A stretch of 64,000 nt of DNA from Rhodanobacter sp. GTDB lineage: Bacteria; Pseudomonadota; Gammaproteobacteria; Xanthomonadales; Rhodanobacteraceae. This document shows, one piece after another, positions 3,469-9,539 of the stretch. A program made the position numbers and the translations under genes. The stretch is taken from positions 42,473 through 106,472 of the forward strand of contig JANJTA010000019.1 of NCBI GenBank assembly GCA_024711345.1, in the 5' to 3' direction. The notes under the pieces were generated by a model that worked only from the letters and a program-made list of their open reading frames with translations, made no database searches and was not told the origin of the DNA. Position 1 is the stretch's first letter. Each line of letters begins with the position of its first letter.

Positions 3469-4233
3469 TCAGCCGGTGTCGTGCCGTTTCGTCGGCGTCG
3501 TGCCGCTGTGGCAGAGGCTGGCGAGCAGGTCGGCGCGAAGTATGCGCACCGCCTTGCGGTTGACTTCGAGCACGCCCATCTCCTCCAGGCGCGAGAACAG
3601 CCGGCTGACCGTCTCCACCGCCAGGCCGAGGTAGTTGGCGATGTCGTAGCGCGACATCGGCAGCGAGAGCGCGATGCCGTCGCGCTGCAGCCGCTGGTAG
3701 CGGTCGGCCAGGCTCTTCAGGAAGATCGCCAGCTGCTCCTGCGCCTGCTGCCGGCCCATCATCACCAGGTGGCGGTGTTCCTCGATCACCTCGCGGCTGA
3801 TCACCCGCATCAGCTGGCGCTGCAGCGCCGGCACCTCGCTGACGACGTGCTGCAGCCGGGCATAGGGCAGCTCGCAGATGCTGCTGCGTTCCAGCGCCTC
3901 GGCCTGGCTGACGTGCCGGTTCAGCGCCAGCGCGTCGAACCCGACGATTTCGCCGGGCAGGTGGAAGCCGAGGATCTGCACGTCGCCGCTCTCGTCCTGC
4001 ACGAAGGTCTTGAGCGAGCCGGAGCGCACCACGTAGAGCGCCTCGAACGGGTCACCGTCGCGGTACAGGGCGCCGCCGCGGTCCAGCGTGCGCCGGTCGC
4101 GCACCGTGGTGTCCAGTCGGTCCAGGTCCGCGCTGCCGATGCCGGCAGGCAGGCAAAGTTCGCCCAGCGCGCAGGAGGAGCAACTGCGCCGCAGCTGATT
4201 GAGGTCGAATACGCTGGCTCCGGAAACCATCAA
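3469..4233 (-). CDS. fnr: CRP/FNR-family oxygen-sensing transcriptional regulator (FNR/ANR type)
   Basis: N-terminal Cys18-x2-Cys21-x5-Cys27 plus internal SSICELPY Cys (FNR [4Fe-4S] ligand pattern); cNMP-like domain; HTH SRYDIANYLGLAVETVSRLFSRLEEMGVLEV. Confidence 0.92.
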   Translation of the reverse strand: MMVSGASVFDLNQLRRSCSSCALGELCLPAGIGSADLDRLDTTVRDRRTLDRGGALYRDGDPFEALYVVRSGSLKTFVQDESGDVQILGFHLPGEIVGFDALALNRHVSQAEALERSSICELPYARLQHVVSEVPALQRQLMRVISREVIEEHRHLVMMGRQQAQEQLAIFLKSLADRYQRLQRDGIALSLPMSRYDIANYLGLAVETVSRLFSRLEEMGVLEVNRKAVRILRADLLASLCHSGTTPTKRHDTG

Positions 4234-4322
4234 CGCCTCGCGAAGCTGGGAAAAAGCGCCTCAACCCGGCTTGCGACCGGGCGAGCCGAACCTTAGCACG
4301 CTGATATGCGAATTCCGCGTAT

Positions 4323-4336
4323 TTGACTGCGGTCAA
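4323..4336. promoter_or_regulatory. FNR/ANR-type box TTGACtgcgGTCAA
   Basis: Perfect palindromic FNR consensus between fnr (minus) and cytochrome b561 (plus). Confidence 0.78.
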
Positions 4337-4429
4337 ATGGCGCACGCGCGCCGCGCCGTAGGCTGTCGGCATGCCCCCGGCCCCCGCGCTGGCGGGCCTG
4401 CGCCGCCCCCTTCACCTGCAGAGGTCACC

Positions 4430-4993
4430 ATGAACTGGAAGAACACTTCGGAGCGTTACGGCGCGTTGATGATCGGCATGCACTGGCTGACGCTGCTGTT
4501 GCTGGTTGCCGTGTATGCCTGCGTCGAGTTGCGCGAGTTCTATCCGCGCGGAAGCGAGCTGCGCGAGGGCCTGAAGAGCTGGCACTTCATGCTGGGGCTC
4601 AGCGTGTTCGTGCTGCTTTTCGTGCGGTTGGCGATTCGTTTCGTGTCCGGGCCCAGGCCGCCGGTACGACCGCCGCTGCCGGCGTGGCAGGAGCACCTGG
4701 CCGCGCTGATGCACCTGGCGCTGTACGCCTTCCTGCTCGTGATGCCGCTGCTCGGCTGGCTGGTGCTCAGCGCGGAGGGCAAGCCGATTCCGTTCTTCGG
4801 CATGCAATGGCCGGCGCTGGTGGGGCCGGACAAGGGGCTCGCCGATTCGCTGGAGGAGATCCACGAGACCATCGGCACGGTGGGCTACTACCTGGTTGGC
4901 CTCCATGCGGCCGCGGCGCTGGTGCATCACTACGTGAGCCGGGACAACACCCTGCTGCGCATGCTGCCGCGGCGCAGCGGGCCGGCCTCGTGA
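4430..4993 (+). CDS. Cytochrome b561 family protein
   Basis: MNWKNTSERYGALMIGMHWLTLLLLVAVYACVELREFYPRGS... IHETIGTVGYYLVGLHAAAALVHHYV. Confidence 0.87.
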   Translation: MNWKNTSERYGALMIGMHWLTLLLLVAVYACVELREFYPRGSELREGLKSWHFMLGLSVFVLLFVRLAIRFVSGPRPPVRPPLPAWQEHLAALMHLALYAFLLVMPLLGWLVLSAEGKPIPFFGMQWPALVGPDKGLADSLEEIHETIGTVGYYLVGLHAAAALVHHYVSRDNTLLRMLPRRSGPAS

Positions 4994-5038
4994 GGGGTGG
5001 CGAGCTTTCCAGCATCACGACAACTTCAAGGGGGCCGT

Positions 5039-6388
5039 ATGCGTAATCTCAGGCGTGCATTCTGGGGCTCGCTCGCCATCCTGGTCCTGCTGTGGCTGGT
5101 TGCCGAGCCGGCCGTTTTCCGGTCGGCCACGTTCTTCGGCCTGCGCGGGGCCATGGTGCAACTGACGGGCTTCGTCGCGATCGGGTGCATGAGCCTGGCG
5201 ATGATCCTGGCGCTCCGGCCGCGGTGGCCCGAGGCGTGGCTGGGTGGCCTCGACAAGATGTATCGCATGCACAAATGGCTCGGCATTTCCGCGCTGGTCG
5301 TCGCCGTCATCCATTGGTTGTGGGCGCAGGGGCCGAAATGGGCGGTGGGTTGGGGCTGGCTGGAGCGTCCGGCGCGCGGCGTGCGGGGCGCTCCGGAAAA
5401 TCCGCTGGCGTCCTTGCTGTCCAGTCAACGCGGCGCCGCGGAGAGTGTGGGCGAATGGGCCTTCTACGCGGTCGTCGTGCTGATCGCACTGGCCCTGATC
5501 CGGCGTTTTCCCTACCACCTGTTCTACAGGACGCACCGCCTGCTTGCCGTCGGCTATCTCGCGCTGGTCTTCCATGCGGTCGTGCTGCTGAAGTTCGACC
5601 ACTGGACGTCGCCGGTCGGCTGGCTGATGGCGGTCCTGCTCGCCGGCGGCAGCTGGGCGGCCATCGTGGTGCTGTTGCGGCGGGTGGGCAGGCGCTCGCA
5701 GGTGGAGGGGAGAATCACCTTGTTGCACCATTTCGACGGGGTGGATGCGCTGGAAATCGAAACCGAGGTGCGCGGCTGGCCCGGCCACCGGCCAGGCCAG
5801 TTCGCTTTCGTCAGCGCGGACGCCGCGGACGGCGCACACCCCTACACCATCGCGTCCGGTTGGCGGGAAGAGACTCCCAGGATCGCCTTCGTGGTCAAGG
5901 ATCTGGGCGATCATACGCACCGCCTGCACGAGAGGCTTCGCGTCGGGCAGGCGGTGCGGGTCGAGGGCCCTTATGGCTGCTTCACGTTCGACGACGGCAG
6001 CCTCCGCCAGATCTGGATCGGCGGCGGCATCGGCATCACGCCCTTCATCGGGCGCATGAAGCAGATGGCGTGGCAGAAGGAAGCGCGCGATTGGCCCGCG
6101 GGCCAGAAGATCGATCTCTTCCACAGCACCGCGGATGTCGACGATGAAGCGCTCGATCGACTGGCGGGCGACGCCCGCTCGGCCGACGTGCGGCTGCACG
6201 TGCTGATCGACGCGCGCGACGGCTACCTGACGGGCGAACGCATCCGCGCGGCCGTACCCGAATGGCGCCAGGCGAGCATCTGGTTCTGCGGGCCGGCGGG
6301 CTTTGGCGAGGCATTGAAGCGCGACCTGGCCAGGCACGGATTTCCGGTGGGGTCGCGTTTCCACCAGGAGCTTTTCACGATGCGCTAG
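5039..6388 (+). CDS. Ferric-reductase-like transmembrane / FAD-NAD(P) oxidoreductase
   Basis: FRE-like TM region with HKWLG and YRTHRLLAV histidines; HPYTIASGW and WIGGGIGITPFIGRMK FNR-type reductase motifs. Confidence 0.85.
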   Translation: MRNLRRAFWGSLAILVLLWLVAEPAVFRSATFFGLRGAMVQLTGFVAIGCMSLAMILALRPRWPEAWLGGLDKMYRMHKWLGISALVVAVIHWLWAQGPKWAVGWGWLERPARGVRGAPENPLASLLSSQRGAAESVGEWAFYAVVVLIALALIRRFPYHLFYRTHRLLAVGYLALVFHAVVLLKFDHWTSPVGWLMAVLLAGGSWAAIVVLLRRVGRRSQVEGRITLLHHFDGVDALEIETEVRGWPGHRPGQFAFVSADAADGAHPYTIASGWREETPRIAFVVKDLGDHTHRLHERLRVGQAVRVEGPYGCFTFDDGSLRQIWIGGGIGITPFIGRMKQMAWQKEARDWPAGQKIDLFHSTADVDDEALDRLAGDARSADVRLHVLIDARDGYLTGERIRAAVPEWRQASIWFCGPAGFGEALKRDLARHGFPVGSRFHQELFTMR

Positions 6389-6501: not shown

Positions 6502-8202
6502 TCAGGCTTGCGCAGGCAGCACCCGCAACAGCGAAGGCGCCGCCACCGCGTTCGCGCGCGCCTCCATCGAGGCGAGGAAGCGCCACACGAACAGCAAGGT
6601 GACCAGCAGCAACCCCGGATAGCCCACGCCGGCCAGCAGGTAGGGCAGGGTCGGATCACCCTCCACGCGTACCCGCGGCAGGTTGAAGCTGAGCAGACCG
6701 AGCGTGATGATGGTGCCGAAGATCCACATGAGCATCAGCCAGATGCCTGCCTCGAAACCGCTCAGCGGGCGGCTCCAGCGGGTGGTGGCGTGCGCTGTGG
6801 CGGCCTCGCCGTGGGCATCCGTGCCGGCTGGCACGGCCACGCGGCGGCCCAGGGTGAGCAGGTCGTAGGCCAGCACGCCGGCGCCCACCGCGAACACCGT
6901 GCCGAACAGCGGCAGCATCAGCTTGAACACGCCCATGGCGCGGGCCACGTCGCCGCCGAACCAGTCCAGGCCCAGGATGCGGTAGACGTAGATCTGCACG
7001 GTGCCGCCGATGGCGAAGGAGAATGCCATGCCGAGCACGCCGGTGAGCACCAGCCAGAAGCCGAGCTTGCCCAGCCGCTGGTCGTAGTTCGGCACCTTGC
7101 GCAGCAGCGGCACGGCGTAATAGGCCGCCGCGATGCCCAGCATGCCGAAGGTGCCGAACAGCGCCAGGTGCGCATGCCCCGGCGTCACCCAGGTGCCGTG
7201 CGACCACACGTTGGTCAGCGCGAAGGTCATGGTGAAGCCCAGGATGCCGGCGCCGATCTGCTCCAGCACCACCGAGCCCAGGATGAAGTAGAACGCGGGC
7301 GCATTCTCCAGCGGGCGCTTGTTGACGTGCGCATCGAGGTAGATGTGCCAGAAGCAGAACACCAGCGGCAGCGGCTCCAGCGCACTGAACAGCGAACCCC
7401 AGAACTGCCAGAACTCCGGCGTGCCGATCCAGAAATAGTGGTGCGCGTTGCCGATCAGTCCGGACAGCCACACCAGCATCACGCCCCAGAACACCGCGAA
7501 GCCCACCGACTTGACGTCGACCTTGAACATCAGCACCAGCAGGAAGCCGACCAGGGTGATGTGGATGACTTCCCACACGCCTTCCACCCAGTAGTGCACC
7601 ACGAACCAGCGGAAGTACTCCTGCAGGTCCAGCCGCGCCACGTAGAACAGGCCGAACACCCACACCGCCATCAGTGCGCTGACGCCGAGGCCGAGGCCCC
7701 AGTGGATCTCGTTCCACTGGCGCACCGGCGGGAACGTGCGCAGCACCACGTAGGCGAGAATCGCGAAGCCGATCAGCACCAGCACGCCGGCAATGCGCCC
7801 CGCCTCCAGGTACTCGAGCCCCTGCTGCAGCCACGGCTGCCCCTGCCACCAGCCGGCGATGCCGAACTGGGCCAGGCGCAGGGTGAAGAAGTTCCACACG
7901 GCGATCACGATCACCGCGTAGAACAGCAGCTTGATCAGCCACGGCGCCACCATCTCGCGCTTGGCCAGCAGCGGCCCGACGAACAGGATCGCGCCGATGA
8001 AGCCGCACAGGATCCACAGGATGCCGAGGTTGAGGTGCTCGGCGCGGGCGACGTTGAAGTTCATCACGCCGGCGAGCACGGTCGGATCGGTCTGTTGCAA
8101 GGACAGCAGCAGGCCGTAGCCGACCTGCAGCACGAACAGCACCAGCATCAGCATGAAGAAACGCATGCTCAGCCGTTGGGTCTGGAATTCGATCTGCATC
8201 AC
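6502..8202 (-). CDS. norB: NorB-like nitric oxide reductase catalytic subunit (heme-copper oxidase superfamily) with extended C-terminus
   Basis: Conserved NorB residues: NFNVARAEHLN, VVHYWVEGVWEVI (His + FeB Glu), GNAHHYFWIGTPEFWQFWGSLFSALEPLP, PGHAHLALFG; 566 aa. Confidence 0.85.
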   Translation of the reverse strand: MMQIEFQTQRLSMRFFMLMLVLFVLQVGYGLLLSLQQTDPTVLAGVMNFNVARAEHLNLGILWILCGFIGAILFVGPLLAKREMVAPWLIKLLFYAVIVIAVWNFFTLRLAQFGIAGWWQGQPWLQQGLEYLEAGRIAGVLVLIGFAILAYVVLRTFPPVRQWNEIHWGLGLGVSALMAVWVFGLFYVARLDLQEYFRWFVVHYWVEGVWEVIHITLVGFLLVLMFKVDVKSVGFAVFWGVMLVWLSGLIGNAHHYFWIGTPEFWQFWGSLFSALEPLPLVFCFWHIYLDAHVNKRPLENAPAFYFILGSVVLEQIGAGILGFTMTFALTNVWSHGTWVTPGHAHLALFGTFGMLGIAAAYYAVPLLRKVPNYDQRLGKLGFWLVLTGVLGMAFSFAIGGTVQIYVYRILGLDWFGGDVARAMGVFKLMLPLFGTVFAVGAGVLAYDLLTLGRRVAVPAGTDAHGEAATAHATTRWSRPLSGFEAGIWLMLMWIFGTIITLGLLSFNLPRVRVEGDPTLPYLLAGVGYPGLLLVTLLFVWRFLASMEARANAVAAPSLLRVLPAQA

Positions 8203-9167
8203 TGCTTCTCCAGGGAGTGGAGGTAGGCCACGATGGCGTTGACTTCGTCGTCCTTGAGCAAGGTCTCGTAGGCGGGCATCACGCCAGTCGGGTAGCCAGC
8301 CACGATCTTGGCGTTGGGCTGGCGGATCGACTCGCGCAGGTAGGCGTCATCGGCGATCACCGTGCTGCCGTCGGAGAGCTTGACCGTCGAGTTGTACAGG
8401 CCGCCCCAGCCGGGCCCGACCAGCTTCTTGTCGTCGGTGGCATGGCAGGCCACGCAGCCGTTGTCCTTGACCAGTTGCGCACCGTGCGCGACGGGATCCA
8501 CCGTCGCGGGCGCGGCAGCCGTCGGCGCCGCCGGCGCAGGCGCCGCCTCGGCGGTCGCGATCACGCCGTGCGCGAGCTGCACGCGGCGGTCGAAGCCCTG
8601 CACTTCCACCTTCGGCGGCCAGCCTTCGGTGTTCATCGCCGAGGTGTACTTGAGGTAGGCGATCAGCTGGCCGATTTCGTCCTTGGTCAGCGGCAGGTTC
8701 GGCATCATCGTGGTGCCGCCGCCGCGCCGTTCGATGCGCTCGGCGGCGCCGGGGAACTTCTTCAGGTAGGCCTCGATCGAGTCGGTGCCGCCATCGGCCT
8801 GCTGGTTCGGATCCAGCAGCTGCGCACGTACCGCCGCCGTGGTCGGCCAGCCGCCGGCCGACGGCAGGAACGCCGCCAGCCACGCCGGTCCGGCGTGCTT
8901 GTACTCCTGGGTGAGGTCCGGGCCCAGATAGGCGCCGTTGCCGACCATGGTGTGGCAGCCCATGCAGTTGTAGGCCTGGAACACGCGCTTGCCGTCAGCG
9001 GCCTGGTAGGGGCCGAAGGACACCGTGTCCGGAGTCACCTGGTTGCGCGACTTCAGGAAGGAGAAGATCGACAACACCACGAAGATCAGGGCCAGGATGG
9101 CCAGTACCACGAAGGCGCCCCGGCGCCGGGGCGTCTCGCAACTGCTACCGCCGGTTCCGCAGCTCAT
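8199..9167 (-). CDS. norC: NorC-like cytochrome c fused to a second CoxB-type cytochrome c domain
   Basis: TM anchor; first heme AYNCMGCHTMVGNGAYLGPDLT (NorC-like); second heme NGCVACHATDDKKLVGPGWGGLY...ADDAYLRESIRQPNAKIVAGYPTGVMPAYE (CoxB-type cytochrome c tail). Confidence 0.85.
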   Translation of the reverse strand: MSCGTGGSSCETPRRRGAFVVLAILALIFVVLSIFSFLKSRNQVTPDTVSFGPYQAADGKRVFQAYNCMGCHTMVGNGAYLGPDLTQEYKHAGPAWLAAFLPSAGGWPTTAAVRAQLLDPNQQADGGTDSIEAYLKKFPGAAERIERRGGGTTMMPNLPLTKDEIGQLIAYLKYTSAMNTEGWPPKVEVQGFDRRVQLAHGVIATAEAAPAPAAPTAAAPATVDPVAHGAQLVKDNGCVACHATDDKKLVGPGWGGLYNSTVKLSDGSTVIADDAYLRESIRQPNAKIVAGYPTGVMPAYETLLKDDEVNAIVAYLHSLEKQ

Positions 9168-9409
9168 GAGAGTTTGTCCTTGGTGATGGCGGTCTGCCCC
9201 TGGGTGTCGTGCACGAACAGGATGCGCAGGCTGCCGATGAAGACGTAGAAGACGTACACCGCCAGCGCGAAGCCGCTCGCGAAGTAGATCCACCAGGCGA
9301 TGTGCGATTCGGGCCAATATTCGAAGTCGCGCCAGAATGGCCAGGACAACAGGACGGCTGCCACGCAGGCCAGCACCGAAAGCGTCAGATCAGTGATCCG
9401 TTGCGTCAT
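9164..9409 (-). CDS. Small membrane protein, first gene of the cNOR-like operon
   Basis: 81 aa, two hydrophobic helices (LTLSVLACVAAVLLSW; YFASGFALAVYVFYVFIG); ATGA overlap with the downstream norC-like gene. Confidence 0.75.
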   Translation of the reverse strand: MTQRITDLTLSVLACVAAVLLSWPFWRDFEYWPESHIAWWIYFASGFALAVYVFYVFIGSLRILFVHDTQGQTAITKDKLS

Positions 9410-9525: not shown

Positions 9526-9539
9526 ATGATCCAGGTCAA
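9526..9539. promoter_or_regulatory. Near-consensus FNR box ATGATccagGTCAA
   Basis: One mismatch to TTGAY-N4-RTCAA; about 120 bp upstream of the cNOR-like operon. Confidence 0.5.

Follow-up and report, generated by a model that had tools for sequence, protein, structure and literature searches.

Three ORFs on the minus strand of the window (the whole 64,000-nucleotide stretch of Rhodanobacter sp. DNA analysed here) form a compact operon in which consecutive genes overlap by 4 nt. They run head to tail in the order small protein, NorC-CoxB-tail fusion and NorB, and the coordinates of the genes and their features are given in Table 1. All the motifs quoted in the original prediction were found in the translations. 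An assembly or frameshift artefact was ruled out, the unit being conserved in 10 Rhodanobacter-group genomes and in 58 named loci. Downstream of the operon, on the opposite strand and convergent with it, lie genes for a cytochrome b561 and for a flavin-reductase-like membrane protein (window 4199-6388). A qNOR gene is located about 6-8 kb from the operon, to the left of the window (G000:C35:41212-42576; L003, L037), several Rhodanobacter genomes likewise have a qNOR a few kb from the operon, and a second qNOR-like gene of the window's genome lies on contig C38 (L005).

Table 1. Genes and features of the operon, with positions in the window
Feature	Position	Strand	Size or basis
NorB-like catalytic subunit	6502..8202	-	566 aa from GTG, 565 from adjacent ATG; 14 predicted transmembrane helices
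NorB C-terminal extension with two extra helices, from about residue 450	6505..6852	-	model and alignment
NorC-CoxB-tail fusion, di-haem cytochrome c	8199..9167	-	322 aa
CoxB/caa3-type cytochrome c tail, residues 224-320	8208..8498	-	match to 1w2l
NorC-like haem domain, residues 56-187	8607..9002	-	match to 3o0r_C, 4xyd_B
Membrane anchor helix of the fusion, about residues 18-37	9057..9116	-	model helix 11-37
Small two-helix protein, third gene of the unit	9164..9409	-	81 aa
Candidate FNR/DNR-type box, TTGACCTGGATCAT	9526..9539	-	130 nt upstream of small gene; 8/10 consensus positions

The NorB-like protein gave a Pfam COX1 match (E 4e-48), and its best solved structures were the NorB subunits of cNOR, 4xyd (2e-60) and 3o0r (4e-54). 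In an AlphaFold model of moderate confidence (mean pLDDT 76) it contained 14 long helices versus 12 in cNOR, the two extra helices corresponding to residues 481-506 and 517-551, and the closest fold was again that of 4xyd (TM-score 0.86, normalised to 4xyd). The C-terminal extension has no counterpart columns in canonical cNOR in the alignment. This agrees with the earlier description of a NorB with cNOR catalytic motifs and additional C-terminal transmembrane helices. The active-site residues H55, H202, E206, E210, H253, H254, E275, H342 and H344 are invariant across the family of homologues described below, as is E129 of the Ca site; the His ligands of FeB, haem b and haem b3 and the catalytic Glu, by which cNOR membership was assessed, all proved invariant. 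A further group of invariant residues (N103, H213, C282, H285, Y287, D289, H291 and E313) is different, and mostly apolar, in canonical cNOR; H285 and D289 are also present in the Thermus clade. H213 (helix 6), residues 285-291 (helix 8) and E313 (helix 9), located by helix order in the model and not by measured distances, lie on the cytoplasmic side of the active site, and the corresponding region of cNOR has been described as hydrophobic (PMC5826923).

The N-terminal half of the fusion matched NorC (3o0r_C, 2e-10, and also 4xyd_B) and the C-terminal half matched the cytochrome domain of subunit II of the Rhodothermus marinus caa3 oxidase (1w2l, 1e-22), confirming the predicted order of a NorC-like domain followed by a CoxB-like tail. 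Only cytochrome domains were detected by Pfam in the fusion; the CuA cupredoxin domain was not found. The NorC-like domain contains a CxxCH motif at residues 68-72 and Met155 as candidate axial ligand (C68, C71, H72 and M155 are invariant in 45 homologues), and the tail contains CxxCH at residues 238-242 and candidate axial Met297. Since both haem motifs and one candidate axial Met per domain are invariant in the 45 fusion sequences, a redox function is suggested for both domains. The two CxxCH motifs depart from the mono-haem NorC of canonical cNOR; every NorC examined beside a canonical or Thermus-type NorB was mono-haem. The two haem domains are joined by a linker (residues 204-221) that is Ala/Pro-rich and of low confidence in the model, so the tail may be mobile. 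At the N-terminus of the fusion (window 9138-9161) a cytoplasmic Cys pair, MSC-x5/6-C-x-E-x2-K/R-R, precedes the membrane helix and is kept in about 40 of the 45 aligned homologues.

The upstream, translationally coupled gene for an 81-aa two-TM protein, put forward earlier as a possible third subunit, turned out to be conserved: of the 58 named loci, 55 contain it and the remainder are cut by contig ends. The core of the protein, LSWPYWRDFEYWPES..YF..GFVLAVYVFYVF.GSLRTLFEHD, is kept across phyla. No convincing known family was found for it, its Pfam matches being scattered and weak, and profile comparison gave no signal either for identity with NorH or for a relationship to the C-terminal extension of NorB; both candidates were rejected. 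Some of the small subunits (L115, L120, L122, L102) have Cys-rich C-termini, such as TCSCGETTG or ACGCGESGC.

Distribution of the family and its place among NO reductases

The scan of named genomes yielded 58 loci with NorB identities of 67-91%. The fusion was present in all of them (in three as contig-edge fragments only), with the three genes in the same order at essentially every complete locus. Because all three genes recur together across phyla, their arrangement is not due to chance. The original prediction of a NOR variant stands as regards an atypical enzyme, but the enzyme is not a one-off; it belongs to a conserved family found in several phyla. Carriers among the named genomes include Rhodanobacter, Luteimonas, Lysobacter, Alcaligenaceae, Castellaniella, Mesorhizobium, Roseovarius and gammaproteobacterium HdN1, together with MAGs labelled Verrucomicrobiota, Kiritimatiellae, Gemmatimonadaceae, Phycisphaerales, Trueperaceae and Bacteroidetes. 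The family spans alpha-, beta- and gammaproteobacteria as well as Deinococcota and Verrucomicrobiota, and other phyla are represented by one MAG each, for which a binning error is possible; Deinococcota (6 of 111 genomes) and Verrucomicrobiota were found repeatedly. In Rhodanobacter the distribution is patchy, the fusion occurring in 10 of 36 genomes, the window's own included. Outside this genus, synteny beyond the three genes is weakly kept, and most of the recurrent neighbouring "genes" were shadow frames.

At the sequence level the family is sharply bounded, since the best other NorB among 369 gammaproteobacterial genomes had 35% identity. The high NorB identity across phyla points to horizontal transfer as the probable origin of this spread. 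Spread by plasmids was rejected on a search of 72,556 plasmid records, in which there were no matches at 60% identity or more. In plasmid records H1-H12, NorB-like proteins were annotated as 'cbb3-type cytochrome c oxidase subunit I', a label that hides NORs from annotation-based surveys.

The NorB tree contained rows of the family, qNOR, canonical cNOR, Thermus-type cNOR and a second clade with di-haem NorC, with two distant oxidase-type rows serving as the outgroup. The family formed one clade (support 100/99). Forcing it together with canonical cNOR was rejected (AU p=0.0027), as had been expected of an atypical NOR outside ordinary cNOR, and forcing it together with the other di-haem clade was also rejected (p=0.019), which rules out a single clade for both di-haem NorC types. 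qNOR was placed as a possible sister branch of the family (support 94/83), and a position of the family as sister to all cNORs together was not rejected (AU p=0.174, with long-branch warnings); by these sequence comparisons, the family may lie closer either to qNOR or to the cNORs as a group. NorB matched cNOR and qNOR far above other families, and subunit II has cytochrome domains only. As cNOR and qNOR are related to C-family oxidases and bNOR, eNOR, sNOR, gNOR and nNOR are B-related (PMC11388526), the family belongs with the C-family-related NORs, the B-related families being set apart by search ranks, domains and description and not by tree rows. Judged from the sequences, it plausibly represents a third type of C-family NOR in addition to cNOR and qNOR. 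The fusion is neither described nor named in the papers found by a literature search outside which the 2024 PNAS NOR survey lay.

Comparison with known systems places the family as follows. Canonical cNOR (P. aeruginosa NorCB, 3o0r; Roseobacter denitrificans, 4xyd) shares with it the NorB fold, the residues for haem b, haem b3, FeB and the catalytic Glu, the Ca-site Glu and the membrane-anchored NorC haem domain. However, NorB identity to canonical cNOR is about 32% and the family, a separate clade, adds two NorB helices, a CoxB-type second haem domain and the small gene, and nearly always lacks NorQ. Thermus-type cNOR (NorCBH), described as heterotrimeric (PMC5748679), also has a third small membrane protein and has H285 and D289 of helix 8 in common with the family, but its NorC is mono-haem, its NorB falls in a separate clade and its NorH, encoded downstream, is unrelated to the small protein by profile comparison. 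qNOR resembles the family in being a C-family-related NOR with a conserved catalytic Glu, but in qNOR, at about 27% identity, a NorC-like N-terminal domain that binds no haem c is fused to NorB in one chain, whereas the family encodes NorC separately and with two haem c motifs.

A di-haem NorC is ruled out as a unique hallmark, since in the other di-haem clade (L050, L068, L200, L201, L212, L218-L221, L256) NorC is also extended by a second haem c domain. That clade is nevertheless sister to canonical cNOR, has a tail of another type and has NorQ in the three genomes tested (3/3). The tail profile scored 75-109 bits on the tails of CuA-bearing subunit II proteins, and 40 bits or less on those of the other di-haem clade; tail identity to the nearest caa3-type CoxB tails is about 41-46%. 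Because the profile separates the two, the CoxB-type tail, rather than di-haem NorC as such, marks the family in sequence terms. Of the feature first singled out as distinctive, the tail is retained as a hallmark and the presence of two haem motifs is not. In caa3-type subunit II (CoxB) the homologous C-terminal cytochrome domain is carried by a CuA cupredoxin domain, whereas in the family it is carried by NorC.

Association with denitrification genes and regulators

Among 39 carrier genomes, 29 had NirK above the curated cut-off and 10 a strong NirS match, so that 34 of the 39 have one or the other. The NirK background, determined in gammaproteobacteria only, was 17 of 339 sampled genomes, the window's own included. 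This co-occurrence with nitrite reductases is an association and not a proof of function. In 11 of 13 carriers examined, no other convincing NOR of the cNOR or qNOR type was found, the count covering these two types and not, systematically, B-family enzymes. Seven of those 11, Mesorhizobium denitrificans LA-28 among them, have NirK or NirS. NO reductases are a main source of biological N2O, a greenhouse gas. None of the NCBIfam models was matched by this NOR, and a widespread NOR of this kind would be undercounted in surveys of N2O sources; some denitrifiers would seem to lack a NOR.

Of 15 carriers without a cNOR, 14 gave no NorQ (CbbQ_C) match; all seven control genomes with a cNOR-clade NorB had NorQ. 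The exception among the carriers was M. denitrificans, with a strong match on another contig. In qNOR, no NorQ is expected; in canonical cNOR, the genes for NorQ and NorD usually lie beside norCB. The family departs from cNOR in three characters: the mono-haem NorC, the placement with canonical cNOR and NorQ. NorQ and NorD are essential for FeB insertion into cNOR (PMC9976466).

The candidate FNR/DNR-type box upstream of the operon was identified by consensus match only. Of 55 loci, 24 have a box scoring at least 8/10, usually 105-140 nt upstream, and an FNR-like regulator is encoded at 3469..4233 of the window. An NsrR-like Rrf2 regulator was found close to the operon in seven loci, and a RIC/YtfE iron-sulfur repair gene in six.

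Proposed mechanism and competing explanations

We consider it quite probable that the operon encodes a genuine three-subunit NO reductase, its activity being deduced from sequence and context. The evidence consists of the invariant catalytic residues, the cNOR-closest fold, the genes kept together and the invariant haem sites, and further of the caa3-homologous tail, the co-occurrence with NirK/NirS, the FNR-type boxes, the NsrR-like and RIC neighbours and the absence of NorQ. The active site should work like that of cNOR, 2 NO being converted into N2O at a haem b3/FeB site of the same construction. Electrons would enter at the CoxB-like cytochrome c tail and pass through the NorC haem and the low-spin haem b to the active site; this route, like the joining of the three products into one complex, is inferred. 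The tail may receive electrons from the different donor proposed earlier or, just as plausibly, give the same bc1/cytochrome c pool a shorter route. The small two-helix protein would be a structural or assembly subunit, and FeB would be inserted without NorQD. More speculatively, protons might be taken up from the cytoplasm along a path made by H213, H285, Y287, D289, H291 and E313, all placed on the cytoplasmic side in the model, which would make the enzyme electrogenic. A third C-family NOR class that combines a caa3-style entry arm, NorQD-free FeB insertion and proton uptake from the cytoplasm along a family-specific His/Asp/Glu path, and thereby conserves energy, is a tentative and rather doubtful proposal. 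The family would offer a natural test of why characterised cNORs do not conserve energy, of FeB insertion without NorQD and of a possible exchange of cytochrome tails between O2 and NO reductases.

An alternative is that the family is just a divergent cNOR subfamily that works mechanistically like cNOR, with periplasmic protons and a soluble cytochrome c donor, and in which the added tail, small subunit and helices would be no more than lineage decoration. We give this explanation somewhat less than an even chance. The identical active-site residues and Ca-site Glu agree with it, as does the non-rejected position as sister to all cNORs together, but the rejected grouping with canonical cNOR and the missing NorQ do not, nor do the polar residues invariant in the family at positions, on the cytoplasmic side, that are mostly apolar in canonical cNOR. 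Moreover, every lineage retains the extra parts, which would not be expected of decoration. A second explanation concerns the tail, which might be a structural or regulatory appendage, the donor docking on the NorC haem as in cNOR. A mobile tail on its Ala/Pro-rich, low-confidence linker would suit such a role, which we nonetheless think unlikely: the haem sites and candidate axial Mets of both domains are invariant in the 45 sequences, implying a redox function, and the homologous caa3 tails accept electrons. An NorB-like oxygen reductase or NO dismutase-like enzyme is very improbable; two-haem c subunits and caa3-type tails do occur in oxygen reductases, and the carrier HdN1 (L126) is known for NO dismutase, but all three NOR glutamates, the FeB-ligand Glu among them, are invariant, the nearest structures are cNORs, and the link with nitrite reductases and NO-responsive genes is strong.

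Distant NorH-like ORFs were also observed near gammaproteobacterial cNOR genes (L019, L064, L213, L214, L215). The NorBs of L064 and L213-L215 group with the Thermus type and, since these ORFs adjoin Thermus-type NorBs, NorCBH-like sets may exist beyond Thermus.
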